From Sphingomonas kaistensis (GTDB lineage: Bacteria; Pseudomonadota; Alphaproteobacteria; Sphingomonadales; Sphingomonadaceae), in NCBI RefSeq assembly GCF_036884275.1, contig NZ_CP145607.1, positions 917,001 through 981,000 on the forward strand: 64,000 nt of DNA, read 5' to 3'. The notes beneath the pieces are model-generated. The model did not search any database, was not told the DNA's origin, and was given only the letters and a program-made list of their open reading frames with translations. The number at the start of each line of letters is the position of its first letter. The first letter of the stretch is position 1. The translations under genes and the position numbers were made by a program. Shown one piece after another: positions 46,611 to 52,004 of this stretch.

Positions 46611-47696
46611 TTAGTCGGCCGAGATCACCCCGCGGCGGATCTGGTCGAGCTCGATGCTCTCGAACAGCGCCTTGAAATTGCCTTCGCCGAAGCCCTCATT
46701 CCCCTTACGCTGGATGAGCTCGTAGAAGATCGGGCCGATCACGTTCTGGGTGAAGATCTGAAGCAGCAGGCCCTGACCTTCGGTCGGGGCGCCGTCGACC
46801 AGAATCTTGCGCTTCTTCAACTCGTCCAGCGGCTCGCCGTGACCCTTCACCCGCTCGTCGAGCAGGTCGTAATAGGTGTCGATGGTGTCCTGGAAGGGGA
46901 TGCCGCGCGCCGACAGGATATCGACGCTCTTGTAGATGTCGGTGGTGCCGAGCGCGATGTGCTGGATGCCTTCGCCTTTGTATTCGCGGAGGAATTCCTC
47001 GATCTGACTCTTGTCGTCCTGGCTTTCGTTGAGCGGAATGCGGATCTTGCCGCAGGGGCTGGTCATCGCCTTGGAGAACAGGCCGGTGACCTTGCCCTCG
47101 ATGTCGAAGTAACGGATTTCGCGGAAGTTGAAGAGCTTCTCGTAGAAGTCGGCCCACACCACCATCCGCCCGCGCCGGACGTTGTGGGTGAGGTGGTCGA
47201 GATAGGTGAGGCAGCTGGCCGAGGCCTGCATCGCTTCTTCGTAGCCCGGCAGATAGTCGAAGCTGTCGGCATAGGCGTCGCCGTGATCGCCATATTGGTC
47301 GACGAGATACAGCAACGAGCCGCCGATGCCTTCGATGGCGGGCCAGCCGAGGCCTTTGGCGGTGACGTCGGTGGCGCCGAGGTCGAGCGCGCGGGCGTGG
47401 GCGGCGGCGGCGTCCTTGACCCGGAAGGCCATGGCGACCGCGCTCGGCCCATGTTCCTTGGAGAAGTCGGCCGCATGACTTTCGTCATGGGCGTTGATCA
47501 GGAAGTTGATGTCGCCCTGGCGGTGGAGGGTGATATCCTGGGTGCGATGCTTCGCCACTGCCGGAAAACCGAGCTTCGCGAACAGGTCGCGCAGAAGCTG
47601 GGGTTCGGGGGCGGCATATTCGACGAACTCGAAGCCGTCGGTACCCATCGGGTTCTCAAGGCCGAGCGGGCCTTTCTCGAGCGTGGCGGTGGCCAT
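46611..47696 (-). CDS. hpd: 4-hydroxyphenylpyruvate dioxygenase
   Basis: Fe(II) enzyme converting 4-hydroxyphenylpyruvate to homogentisate in tyrosine breakdown. 361 aa, normal for bacteria. Vicinal-oxygen-chelate fold with iron ligands expected in LDHLTHNVRRG (His), EGIQHIALGTTDI (His) and GLLLQIFTQNVIGPIF (Glu nearby in PTEGQGLLLQ), and the C-terminal GNFKALFESIELDQIRRG lid. ATG 47696 has an AAGGAGA. phhA and phhB are next door, but hmgA and the rest of the homogentisate route are outside the window. Confidence 0.97.
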   Translation of the reverse strand: MATATLEKGPLGLENPMGTDGFEFVEYAAPEPQLLRDLFAKLGFPAVAKHRTQDITLHRQGDINFLINAHDESHAADFSKEHGPSAVAMAFRVKDAAAAHARALDLGATDVTAKGLGWPAIEGIGGSLLYLVDQYGDHGDAYADSFDYLPGYEEAMQASASCLTYLDHLTHNVRRGRMVVWADFYEKLFNFREIRYFDIEGKVTGLFSKAMTSPCGKIRIPLNESQDDKSQIEEFLREYKGEGIQHIALGTTDIYKSVDILSARGIPFQDTIDTYYDLLDERVKGHGEPLDELKKRKILVDGAPTEGQGLLLQIFTQNVIGPIFYELIQRKGNEGFGEGNFKALFESIELDQIRRGVISAD

Positions 47697-47762
47697 GGGA
47701 AAGTCTCCTTGTCAGCGGTCCCTTGCGCCGGGCATGGTCGCTTTTCAAGCAGGAGGCCGGGC

Positions 47763-47999
47763 ATGGCGTGGGAAGAACGGGATGGTGCGCTGTGGCGAAG
47801 CTTCGTCTTCAAGGATTTCAGCGAAGCGTGGGGCTTCCTGACGCGCGTGGCGCTGCACGCCGAGACGGTGGATCACCATCCCGAATTCACCAGCGTCTGG
47901 AACCGGGTCGATTTTCGCCTGACCAGCCATGACGCGGGCGGGGTGACCGATCGCGACCGCGCGCTGGCGGACGTGATCGATCGCCTAGCCGGTCAGTAG
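47763..47999 (+). CDS. phhB: Pterin-4a-carbinolamine dehydratase
   Basis: Regenerates the pterin cofactor after each turnover of phenylalanine hydroxylase. 78 aa, shorter than the usual 95-115 because the N-terminal helix is reduced. The catalytic core is intact: FKDFSEAWGFLTRVALHAE and DHHPEFTSVWNRVDFRLTSHD, followed by GGVTDRDRALADVID. It is divergent from hpd and close to phhA (49 kb), so it belongs to the same pathway. Its last codons overlap a tiny convergent gene. Confidence 0.92.
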   Translation: MAWEERDGALWRSFVFKDFSEAWGFLTRVALHAETVDHHPEFTSVWNRVDFRLTSHDAGGVTDRDRALADVIDRLAGQ

Positions 48000-48156: not shown

Positions 48157-48486
48157 TTAGTCGAACATGGCGGTGGCGAGCGGCTCGCTGGCCCCGAACC
48201 AGATCACATGATCGGTATGGTCCGAACGATCGTCCCCAGTCGATGGATGCGCGAAGACGGTGAGCCCCCGGCGATGCAGCGGAAGCCAGCAGGCGACTTC
48301 GCCGAAGCGGTCGGGGGCAACCGTCAGCTGGACCGAGCCGCGCGGATGCGGGCCGACCGGGCGGGTGTGGAAATGGCCCACCGCCGCGCCGAATCGCTCG
48401 GCCACTTCGGCCGCCACGGTGCGGGCGAGGTCGATCTCCGCAGCGTCGAAATAAAGATGCACGTGAAAGTCGCTCGGCCCGCTCAT
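48157..48486 (-). CDS. DOPA 4,5-dioxygenase family protein
   Basis: 109 aa matching the small DOPA-4,5-dioxygenase-type family (PF08883): FHVHLYFDAAEIDLA, VGHFHTRPVGPHPRGSVQL, LPLHRRGLTVFAHPSTGDD and SDHTDHVIWFG. Multiple conserved His (HVH, HFH, GPH, HP) would bind the metal. Members cleave catechol rings of DOPA-like compounds in plants and fungi; the bacterial role is largely unproven. The setting beside phhA, hpd and phhB supports a tyrosine-derived substrate. Confidence 0.88.
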   Translation of the reverse strand: MSGPSDFHVHLYFDAAEIDLARTVAAEVAERFGAAVGHFHTRPVGPHPRGSVQLTVAPDRFGEVACWLPLHRRGLTVFAHPSTGDDRSDHTDHVIWFGASEPLATAMFD

Positions 48487-48564
48487 GGGGCGAAGATGGG
48501 TAGGCTGGTGCCCGAGCGGAAGAGCCAGCTTTCATTCAGGTGGGATTGCGGATAGGCAGGCTTC

Positions 48565-48624
48565 ATGACCGCGCACGTCGCTATCGCCAGCTACTATTAT
48601 CGCCACGAGGTGGGGATCGGCTAA
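48565..48624 (+). CDS. Tyrosine-codon leader peptide before phhA
   Basis: A 19-residue ORF, MTAHVAIASYYYRHEVGIG, has three consecutive Tyr codons (TAC TAT TAT, 48592-48600), a ribosome site AGGCAGG four bases before the ATG, and a terminator 33 bp after its stop, all ahead of phhA. The layout copies that of trpL-trpD at 35.7 kb in this same window. Stalling at the Tyr codons when charged tRNA-Tyr is scarce would let transcription reach phhA, whose product is tyrosine. This mechanism is inferred; I know of no described tyrosine-leader attenuator for phhA. Confidence 0.75.
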   Translation: MTAHVAIASYYYRHEVGIG

Positions 48625-48657
48625 CGCGCGTCTATTGAAGACCCAAGTTTCCGCCAC

Positions 48658-48688
48658 CCCGCCAGGCCACCGCCCGGCGGGTTTTTTT
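48658..48688 (+). terminator. Attenuator terminator upstream of phhA
   Basis: CCCGCC (48658-48663) pairs with GGCGGG (48676-48681) followed by seven T (48682-48688). It sits between the Tyr leader peptide and phhA (ATG 48729). A competing helix, GGTGG (48609-48613, inside the leader) with CCACC (48654-48658), overlaps the 5' base of the stem. The stem sequence is nearly that of the trp attenuator. Confidence 0.82.
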
Positions 48689-48728
48689 GTGTTCGTTTCA
48701 CGCCTCCGTTTTTCAAGGGACCGTACCG

Positions 48729-49487
48729 ATGCTGAAGACTCTTCACCGTGCCGAAGCCGACCCGCAGCTGCCGGGCTGGCAGGCCTATGTGGTGGACCAG
48801 GGCTGGGACCGTTTCAGCGCCGAGGAGCACGAGACGTGGGATATTCTTTACGCCCGGCAGGCGGCGTTGTTGAAGGGGCGGATCGTGCGCCGGTTCATGG
48901 ACGGGCTGGGCAAGGTCGGGCTGGATGTCGGCGGTATCCCGGAGCTCGGGCGGCTGAACGCGCGGCTAGCGCCCCTGACCGGCTGGCGCTGCGTCGCGGT
49001 GGCGGGACTGGTCCCCGACGAGGCGTTCTTCGCGATGCTGGCGGCGCGGGTGTTTCCGATCGGCAATTTCATCCGCACGCGCGCCGAGCTCGATTATCTG
49101 GAGGAGCCGGACTGTTTTCACGATCTGTTCGGGCATGTGCCGATGCTGGCCGACCGCGCGGTGGCCGACGCGATGCAGCGGTTCGGCGAGACGGGTGTCG
49201 AAGCGATCGCGGCGGGCCATGGCGACAAGGTGGCACGGCTTTACTGGCACACGATCGAATTCGGACTGGTGCGCGAGGAGGGCGAAGTCTGCATCCTCGG
49301 CGCAGGGCTGGCGTCGAGCTTTGGCGAAGCGCTGAAAAGTCTCGACGACCCGGCGATCGAGCGGCGGCGGTTCACCCCGGAAGGGGCGGTGGCGACGCCG
49401 TATCGCCACGATGCGATGCAGCCGCTGTATCTCGTCGCCGACGGGATGGACGCGGTGGTGGCGGCGCTGGCCGGGCCGCTGCCGTGA
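48729..49487 (+). CDS. phhA: Phenylalanine 4-hydroxylase
   Basis: Non-haem iron, pterin-dependent enzyme turning phenylalanine into tyrosine. 252 aa, catalytic domain only as in other bacteria. Iron ligands are His131 and His136 in CFHDLFGHVPML and Glu177 in YWHTIEFGLV. Also EEHETWDILYARQ, GWRCVAVAGLVPDEAFFAMLA, FPIGNFIRTRAELDYLEEPD and GAGLASSFGEAL. ATG 48729 is used; an upstream GTG/ATG reading would run into the attenuator. With phhB and hpd it forms a Phe to Tyr to homogentisate path. Confidence 0.97.
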   Translation: MLKTLHRAEADPQLPGWQAYVVDQGWDRFSAEEHETWDILYARQAALLKGRIVRRFMDGLGKVGLDVGGIPELGRLNARLAPLTGWRCVAVAGLVPDEAFFAMLAARVFPIGNFIRTRAELDYLEEPDCFHDLFGHVPMLADRAVADAMQRFGETGVEAIAAGHGDKVARLYWHTIEFGLVREEGEVCILGAGLASSFGEALKSLDDPAIERRRFTPEGAVATPYRHDAMQPLYLVADGMDAVVAALAGPLP

Positions 49488-50744: not shown

Positions 50745-52004
50745 TTAGAGATATTCGCCGCCCATCAGCCCTTGCAGCGCCTTGGGCAGGCGCACGCGGC
50801 CGTCTTCGGTCTGGTGATTTTCCAGCAGGGGCACGAGGATGCGGGGGCTGGCCAGCGCGGTGTTGTTGAGGGTGTGGGCGTAGCGCACCTTGCCGTCCGC
50901 ATCGCGGTAGCGAAGGTTGGCGCGGCGGGCCTGCCAGTCGTGCAGGGTCGAGCAGCTGTGGGTCTCGCGATATTTGCCGAGCGAAGGCACCCAGCTCTCG
51001 ATATCGTTCATGCGAAATTTGCCCAGGCCCATGTCGCCGGTCGAGGTTTCGATCACCTGATAGGGGATTTCAAGGTCGGTCAGCAGTTCTTCGGCGAGGC
51101 CGAGTAGCTTGGCGTGCCACTCGGCGGAGGTCGCCTCGTCGGCTTCGCAGATGACGAACTGTTCGACCTTGGCGAACTGGTGGACGCGCAAGAGGCCGCG
51201 CACGTCGCGGCCCGCGCTGCCGGCTTCGCGGCGGAAGCAGGGCGAGTAGCCGGCGTAGAGCACGGGGCCCTTGGACAGGTCGAGGATCTCGCCCGAATGA
51301 AGCGAGGTCAGCGCGACTTCGGCGGTGCCGGCGAGCCACAAATCGTCGTTGGGGAGCTGGTAGGTTTCTTCCTTGTGGCCGGGGAATTGGCCTTGGCGCA
51401 CAAACGCTTCCTCGCGGACCAGCGCGGGCACGGTGATCGGGGTGAAGCCCGCGCCCGCGATCTTGGTCAGCGCCCAGCTCATCAGCACGGTCTCGAGCAG
51501 GGCGAGGCGGCCCTTGAGGCAATATTGGCGGCTGCCCGACACCTGGACGATACGGCCGAGATCGGCCCAGTCGTTCCGTTCGCACAGTTCGACATGGTCG
51601 CGCGGGGTGAAGCCGAACTCGGGCAGCGTGCCTTCGATGCGGATGACGACGTTGCTGTTTTCGTCCGGACCGATCGGCGCGCCGTCCCACGGGATGTTGG
51701 GGAGGCGGAGGAGCGCGTCCTTGAGCGCGGTCTCCTTGTCGGCGATTCCGGCTTCGAATTCGGAGGCCTTGGCGCCGGCTTCCTTGGCGCGGCGGCCGAG
51801 TTCGGCCTTTTCTTCCGGCGCGGCGGTCTTGAAGCCGGCCGAGATGGCGTTGCGCTCGGCCCGCAGGCGGTCGACCTCGGTCTTGTTGGCGCGCACCTCG
51901 GTTTCGAGCGCAAGGATCGCGTCGAGGTCGATCGCGACATTCTTCTGCTCCGCCGCGCGGGCGACGAGGTCACGGTTCTGGCGGAGAAAGGCGAGGTCCA
52001 GCAT
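50745..52004 (-). CDS. serS: Seryl-tRNA synthetase
   Basis: 419 aa class II synthetase. N-terminal coiled-coil arm (RANKTEVDRLRAERNAISAG, residues 25-100) binds the long variable arm of tRNA-Ser; the catalytic core has TAEVALTSLHSGEIL (serine/ATP pocket), PCFRREAGSAGRDVRGLLRVHQF (motif 2), and NNTALASPRILVPLLEN (motif 3). ATG 52004 begins MLDLAFLRQN, the conserved start. The only two tRNAs in the window are both serine tRNAs, probably by chance. Confidence 0.98.
   Translation of the reverse strand: MLDLAFLRQNRDLVARAAEQKNVAIDLDAILALETEVRANKTEVDRLRAERNAISAGFKTAAPEEKAELGRRAKEAGAKASEFEAGIADKETALKDALLRLPNIPWDGAPIGPDENSNVVIRIEGTLPEFGFTPRDHVELCERNDWADLGRIVQVSGSRQYCLKGRLALLETVLMSWALTKIAGAGFTPITVPALVREEAFVRQGQFPGHKEETYQLPNDDLWLAGTAEVALTSLHSGEILDLSKGPVLYAGYSPCFRREAGSAGRDVRGLLRVHQFAKVEQFVICEADEATSAEWHAKLLGLAEELLTDLEIPYQVIETSTGDMGLGKFRMNDIESWVPSLGKYRETHSCSTLHDWQARRANLRYRDADGKVRYAHTLNNTALASPRILVPLLENHQTEDGRVRLPKALQGLMGGEYL

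Follow-up and report, generated by a model that had tools for sequence, protein, structure and literature searches.

E. coli trpL and pheL, whose architecture is used here for comparison, and alphaproteobacterial trpL place a short ORF with tandem codons for the sensed amino acid upstream of a biosynthetic gene, and attenuators of the trp, his and phe type alternate among a 1:2 protector, a 2:3 antiterminator and a 3:4 terminator with a U run. Analysis of a 64,000-nucleotide stretch of the Sphingomonas kaistensis genome (the window, whose coordinates are used throughout) revealed a leader of similar layout in front of phhA, encoding phenylalanine 4-hydroxylase, with a tandem-codon ORF, a terminator, a predicted protector and a candidate 2:3 antiterminator. 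In contrast to the trp, his and phe type, however, this leader would sense tyrosine and control a hydroxylase better known from catabolism; it was found in one sphingomonad PhhA clade only and matched no Rfam family, since a search with Rfam, including its leader families and the T-box, gave no match at the gathering score and none up to E = 1 in 48450-48760.

In the available sections of PMC7298713, the Sinorhizobium meliloti trpL attenuator RNA (rnTrpL) begins at the leader ATG, as is proposed here for the phhA leader, but the S. meliloti leader pairs tryptophan with trpE(G), whereas the phhA leader pairs tyrosine with phhA and has no known trans role. In Pseudomonas, the same gene is controlled by PhhR, a protein activator that acts with a sigma-54 promoter in catabolism (PMC1173090, in the sections available), in contrast to the RNA switch with biosynthetic logic proposed here. 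Those sections also report predicted attenuators (Merino database) upstream of tyrA operons such as hisHb-tyrA, which likewise concern a tyrosine biosynthesis gene but lie before tyrA rather than phhA, and the tyrA-attenuator section of that source describes no Tyr-codon leader. The accessible text of an actinobacterial survey (PMC1262725) places histidine, threonine and phenylalanine under attenuators elsewhere and tyrosine under T-boxes, and that of PMC8632094 proposes a phenylalanine-sensing uORF before aroF. The literature searched, outside of which lay the Merino database and Vitreschak et al. 2004, held neither a Tyr attenuator nor an attenuator before phhA. The kind of system is known, and the amino acid, the gene and the pathway context appear to be new within that literature; so far as it shows, tyrosine would with this leader join the amino acids that are sensed by ribosome-mediated attenuators.

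Anatomy of the phhA leader

An earlier note on this DNA had described, in order, a 19-codon ORF with three consecutive Tyr codons, a GC hairpin followed by seven T, and phhA, and inspection of the sequence bore out each element and its position. The features of the locus are as follows.

48529..48534, + strand: -35-like hexamer CTTTCA, weak, 16 nt upstream of the -10 (promoter-like score)
48551..48556, + strand: -10-like hexamer GATAGG, 8 nt upstream of the leader ATG (promoter-like score, relatives)
48565..48624, + strand: leader ORF, MTAHVAIASYYYRHEVGIG and stop (sequence; a Tyr-run leader ORF is also present at 24 other phhA loci, one a duplicate)
48592..48600, + strand: putative regulatory codons TAC TAT TAT, Tyr-Tyr-Tyr (sequence)
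48599..48617, + strand: predicted protector (1:2) hairpin ATC-CCAC-GAG-GTGG-GAT (minimum-energy fold)
48609..48615, + strand: region 2, candidate antiterminator 5' arm GGTGGGG, within the last leader codons (best fold with the terminator forbidden; complementarity test)
48657..48663, + strand: region 3, CCCCGCC, candidate 3' arm of the antiterminator, which overlaps the 5' arm of the terminator (best fold with the terminator forbidden)
48658..48688, + strand: intrinsic terminator, CCCGCC.GGC-CACC-GCC.GGCGGG and seven T (sequence, fold, covariation over 24 loci)
48715..48720, + strand: Shine-Dalgarno-like AAGGGA of phhA (sequence)
48729..49487, + strand: phhA, phenylalanine 4-hydroxylase, the putatively regulated gene (Biopterin_H PF00351, E 3.4e-41, 141.8 bits)

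The leader ORF runs from the ATG at 48565 through 19 codons to a TAA stop at 48622-48624. Of the 757 short-ORF ends (6-45 codons) on the two strands of the 64-kb window, it alone has three Tyr codons in a row; in six ORFs of the window, Tyr accounts for 39 of 1,968 codons. The terminator hairpin (CCCGCC-A-GGC-CACC-GCC-C-GGCGGG, 48658-48681, followed by T at 48682-48688) has a predicted energy of -18.0 kcal/mol; a simple promoter and terminator scan of 48400-48760 reported neither, the terminator having been overlooked likely because of its stem mismatch. The downstream gene is the single PF00351 match in the 2.79-Mb genome.

Alignment of the loci on the leader ATG revealed promoter-like hexamer pairs that end 6-10 nt upstream of it, for example TTGACA-17-GATCAT-7-ATG (L013), TTGAGC-17-TACAAT-6-ATG (L037) and CTGGCA-16-GATAAG-8-ATG (L032); L038 has TATAGT-6-ATG, and TTGACA with a 17-nt spacer occurs in L007, L010, L011, L013 and L029. 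The promoter-like score averaged 7.6 of 12 over 22 loci (5-10 nt range) compared to 5.0 for shuffled sequences and 4.7 for displaced anchors, a result favored by the choice of ATG, which at loci with several in-frame starts was made partly by promoter distance. At most 5% of shuffles reached the observed score in 15 of the 22 loci and 85% did so in L004; the window's own CTTTCA-16-GATAGG-8-ATG scores 6, and 27% of its shuffles do as well. Given the -10-like site 8 nt upstream, transcription may begin at the ATG or close to it, and judging from these motifs the leader mRNA is probably leaderless or nearly so. Shine-Dalgarno complementarity averaged -2.9 at the leader compared to -5.2 at phhA, taken as the first ATG after the T run. 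The window reverses this order (-6.4 at the leader, -4.3 at phhA), which speaks against a leaderless mRNA. The good ribosome site recorded in the earlier note is doubtful, given the promoter-like -10 just upstream of the ATG; if transcription starts at or near the ATG, the site would be promoter DNA outside the RNA. As a separate observation, TTCA directly follows the -35 region (window 48535-48539) in 16 of 16 g1-type rows, as TTCAG in 11 and TTCAT or TTCAC in five, and could belong to the promoter or to an operator.

We consider it highly probable that this leader is a ribosome-mediated transcription attenuator of the classical trp type, one that responds to charged tRNA-Tyr and exerts end-product control over a PhhA-based route to tyrosine. 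Transcription would probably start at or near the leader AUG, with a translating ribosome trailing the polymerase. When Tyr-tRNA is plentiful, the ribosome would reach the stop codon and cover region 2, the terminator would form and phhA would be left untranscribed. When Tyr-tRNA is scarce, the ribosome would stall at the three Tyr codons and block the 1:2 hairpin, so that region 2 could pair with region 3, prevent the terminator and allow phhA to be made. With prephenate dehydratase present in the window's genome and TyrA (prephenate dehydrogenase) absent, hydroxylation of phenylalanine is probably how tyrosine is made there, and the switch would be the end-product control of this route.

Conservation and distribution of the leader

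We searched 298 genomes of the same family, 254 of which contain phhA, and examined the 30 best-scoring loci, a selection biased to near relatives, together with 80 further phhA loci from named genomes; as much as 600 nt of sequence ahead of each match was read. A Tyr-codon short ORF followed by a GC hairpin with five or more T and then by phhA was present at 25 loci, the window included. These comprise 11 of the 30 best family loci (the window itself, as L001, and L002-L007, L010, L011, L013 and L029), 13 of the 80 named loci (L031-L043, including Sphingomonas alba, S. arenae and a Sphingomicrobium MAG) and L119, found when 700 nt upstream of the phhA match were read in genomes lacking TyrA. 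L039 duplicates L002, leaving 24 distinct natural variants. The Tyr-codon ORF and the terminator described in the earlier note thus recur together upstream of phhA, and this hairpin kept after loss of the Tyr ORF was seen at none of the loci read. A chance ORF before a terminator was rejected because the arrangement is kept in 25 loci with covariation.

The leader-terminator pair was missing from 86 of the 110 phhA loci, a few of which contain a loose ORF with Tyr codons or a T-run hairpin farther away. Its absence from 67 of the 80 named loci, and likewise from 19 of the 30 best family loci, led us to reject a general trait of sphingomonad or Burkholderia phhA, and loose Tyr-containing ORFs at L009, L021, L023, L044 and L081 were set aside since no terminator precedes phhA there. 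Sphingomonas sp. BN140010 carries two near-identical leader-phhA copies (L032 and L033) on one contig, about 450 kb apart.

At least three consecutive Tyr codons occur in 16 of the 24 aligned leaders, two occur in six, and the run is interrupted in two (YAYAY and YAYRSTY; L006 and L007). Counted over the final 16 codons in 23 rows, TAT occurs 56 times and TAC 13 times. Leader length ranges from 18 to 40 codons, depending on the start codon picked per locus. The tails of the peptides vary by subclade (EVGIG, AVETG, RRRAVFD, RTARAGPI) and the Tyr codons are retained, a combination that points to codon reading rather than a fixed peptide and to the Tyr codons as the element kept. A TnaC-like nascent-chain sensor, in which free tyrosine or phenylalanine would stall the ribosome and the Tyr codons would lie within an arrest peptide, would also present itself as a short peptide ahead of a terminator. 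Arrest peptides conserve specific residues, however, whereas the residues flanking the Tyr run vary between subclades of the 24 leaders, and a run of two to five consecutive Tyr, interrupted in two loci and variable in position, fits codon reading; such a sensor is in our judgment extremely improbable.

In the PhhA tree, all 25 leader rows fall on one side of a branch with 99/99 support and 53 other rows fall on the opposite side, which allows a single origin of the attenuator leader; in the genomes sampled, it is limited to this one PhhA clade and is not general among sphingomonads. A separate observation concerns SerRS (window 50745-52004), of which two divergent types occur among 30 genomes: those of g1, g11, g54 and three named relatives, for one of which the match is partial, are 68-82% identical to that of the window, and those of the other 14, g45 included, are 35-41% identical. 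The sequence divergence suggests gene replacement, and the two types made SerRS unusable as a species tree.

A covariance model of the leader (R1), built from rows that include 12 family sequences, matched 159 of the 298 family genomes at E <=0.01. Twelve matches were strong (E <=1.7e-8), all before phhA, and the best match after these had E 4e-6 and 36 bits; by genus, the strong matches include 6 of 6 in g1, 2 of 2 in g45 and 4 of 6 in g54 (the four with phhA). No new leader was found by R1 among the 298 genomes, a limited test of absence elsewhere since the 12 strong matches are the model's own rows, and the 18 weaker matches read had no Tyr run. Among 385 class-level genomes, only the window was a real match, and that of G330 resembles a plain terminator. 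Strict filters limited R1 to no more than 9-12 scored candidates in each genome, so that it may have passed over weak relatives. No Tyr leader was found before tyrA at the five TyrA loci read with short flanks (L111-L114 and L178). Three weak R1 matches (L162, L165 and L176) lie beside short leucine-run ORFs (MIKITNIVALLLLAALAAG-like), which may belong to a leucine attenuator or may be no more than small ORFs of a lipoprotein-like kind.

Competing pairings in the leader RNA

Over the 24 loci, 97.1% of 239 terminator cells are paired, and the covariation score, for a structure derived from the same alignment, is 0.310 compared to 0.188 in shuffles (0 of 500 as high) and at most 0.107 when slid. 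For the 2:3 pairing, region 2 was taken as the last eight codons with the stop and region 3 as a segment ahead of the terminator and within its 5' arm. The energy of cognate pairs averaged -20.7 kcal/mol compared to -18.3 (sd 0.48) for permuted pairs, with 0 of 20,000 permutations as good, and to -16.2 with shuffled region 2. The cognate pairing was no better than the non-cognate mean in nine of the 24 rows (L010, L011, L013, L029, L032-L035 and L119); the fixed region-3 window may clip part of the arm at short-loop terminators. The Tyr-codon attenuator of phhA put forward in the earlier note thus gains comparative support from the co-occurrence of ORF and terminator and from covariation of a leader arm with the segment before the terminator.

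In the window, GGTGGGG (48609-48615) and CCCCGCC (48657-48663) can form 7 bp with one G-U. The competing pairing previously suggested, GGTGG at 48609 with CCACC at 48654, involves segments that are present, but the 7-bp helix is the better competitor. Folding of the window also predicts the 1:2 hairpin, which would sequester the 5' arm of the antiterminator; it is stronger in L031-L033 and is absent from some relatives.

Folding with the terminator forbidden (23 rows, L119 left out) placed the 2:3 helix over the terminator arm in the window, L006, L007, L010, L011, L013, L029, L031 and L034-L036, and partly so in L040. In nine loci (L002-L005, L037, L038 and L041-L043), a flush helix lies beside the terminator, not over it, so that exclusion of the terminator is not obvious there, and L032 and L033 have no 2:3 helix in this fold. 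A short outer helix enclosing the terminator arm is possible by folding in L037, L038 and L043. The flush helix shows double changes at positions 1 (C-G/G-C), 3 (A-U/C-G), 6 (U-A/C-G) and 7 (U-A/G-C), and its pairing averaged 8.0 of 9 compared to 6.8 in shuffles (shuffle maximum 7.4) over 11 hand-picked loci, namely the nine flush-type loci, L006 and L032, the last aligned in another register.

Equilibrium folding showed no switch. The terminator formed at 85-100% in all 23 rows whether region 2 was free or not, with an assumed ribosome footprint that cut into region 2 in several rows, and as a proof of switching the approach failed, the terminator being favored throughout; with the terminator dominant at equilibrium, any switching would need to be under kinetic control. 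For the 126-nt leader of the window, the fold has no exceptional stability (z -0.24), which alone says little on alternating structures. Thermodynamic dominance of the terminator in the 23 folded rows would also suit a constitutive leader, in which the Tyr codons are unresponsive and the terminator either fixes a low phhA level or marks the end of a separate small RNA, and termination would release a short RNA, comparable to S. meliloti trpL (PMC7298713, in the text available). We consider a constitutive leader very improbable, however, as it offers no evident reason for Tyr codons and a covarying leader-arm pairing across 24 divergent leaders. For the tyrosine attenuator that we favor, these 24 variants, with their differing 2:3 geometry, form a set for studying attenuator evolution.

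TyrA loss and the supply of tyrosine

Enzymes of the PhhA family convert phenylalanine to tyrosine. The C domain of TyrA (PF20463), detected in 12 of 14 control genomes, was present in 263 of the 298 family genomes and absent from the window's genome and 34 others, as taken from result tables and, for 15 genomes, by set difference; the five other sampled members of the window's genus are among those lacking it. The N domain (PF02153) was above cut-off in 0 of these 35 genomes and in 14 of 14 control genomes, with weak sub-threshold PF02153 (PDH_N) matches in G077, G145 and G152, the first two of them leader-bearing. PhhA is present in 32 of the 35.

All 12 strong leader matches fall in TyrA-less genomes and none in the 263 TyrA-positive genomes (Fisher ~1e-12, not corrected for relatedness and thus overstating independence, as the genomes are related). 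Among the named leader-bearing genomes, both isolates and MAGs of unstated completeness, 11 of 12 are without the TyrA domain, S. alba being probably G197 again. The exception is a Sphingomicrobium MAG (L041, G307) with a TyrA domain on a contig of at least 147 kb, either a true exception or contamination. With 700 nt read upstream of each match, 20 TyrA-less genomes have phhA without the leader, some with a T-run hairpin or a Tyr-containing ORF and never both. A leader in every TyrA-less genome was accordingly rejected, as these 20 of the 32 with phhA have no ORF-terminator pair. A separate PhhA clade holds 16 TyrA-less genomes whose phhA has no leader (L123, L124, L126-L135, L137, L140, L141 and L143; genera g7, g19, g20, g55, g60, g65 and g80).

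The absence of TyrA from the window's genome and from 12 of 12 leader-bearing genomes of the 298 argues that PhhA is probably the tyrosine biosynthesis enzyme here and the route to tyrosine in the window's genome. The proposal that phhA serves tyrosine supply is therefore supported comparatively. Precedent for the enzyme (PAH) as a tyrosine biosynthesis route exists in Dyella japonica, Legionella and Echinicola in the available sections of PMC7311316, which do not describe control of that route.

The window's genome has a prephenate dehydratase, as do G186, G229, G297, G010, G051 and G128; the domain of this enzyme was not found in G077, G145, G197, G238 and G274, all of the window's genus, or in G044, G124, G266, G053 and G129. 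Some leader-bearing species may therefore import phenylalanine and make only tyrosine from it. In G077, G145, G197, G238, G274, G044 and G124, phenylalanine would have to be external or to come from an unrelated enzyme, for example a periplasmic cyclohexadienyl dehydratase. G053 and G129 (g54) have no TyrA, PhhA or prephenate dehydratase match, while sister species retain leader and phhA; with all three domains missing, these two are predicted tyrosine and phenylalanine auxotrophs.

Two nearby genes bear on the role of phhA.

46611-47696: hppD-type gene, near phhA
47718-47999: pterin dehydratase gene, near phhA

These neighbors would suit a reading in which the Tyr attenuator is real and phhA is mainly catabolic (phenylalanine to homogentisate), the switch only silencing phhA when tyrosine is plentiful. 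However, TyrA is absent from the genome and phhA is the only tyrosine route recognized, and one would expect the amino acids of its pathway to turn a purely catabolic gene on, not off; we find a mainly catabolic role improbable. End-product control of a PhhA tyrosine route, the reading that we prefer, would link a regulatory RNA to a rewired pathway that can be read from genomes, with TyrA gone and a "catabolic" enzyme regulated as a biosynthetic one, and predicts PhhA-based tyrosine synthesis in sphingomonads that a TyrA-only search would call auxotrophs. We regard as unlikely the fuller scenario in which loss of TyrA made a catabolic phenylalanine hydroxylase the sole tyrosine synthase, the gene acquired in that lineage its own product-sensing, leaderless Tyr attenuator, the first ribosome-mediated one for tyrosine, and the flush-type loci drifted to antitermination without the classical overlap.

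A Dopa 4,5-dioxygenase-family gene (PF08883; 48157-48486, minus strand) lies divergent from the phhA leader and is also near the pterin dehydratase and hppD-type genes.
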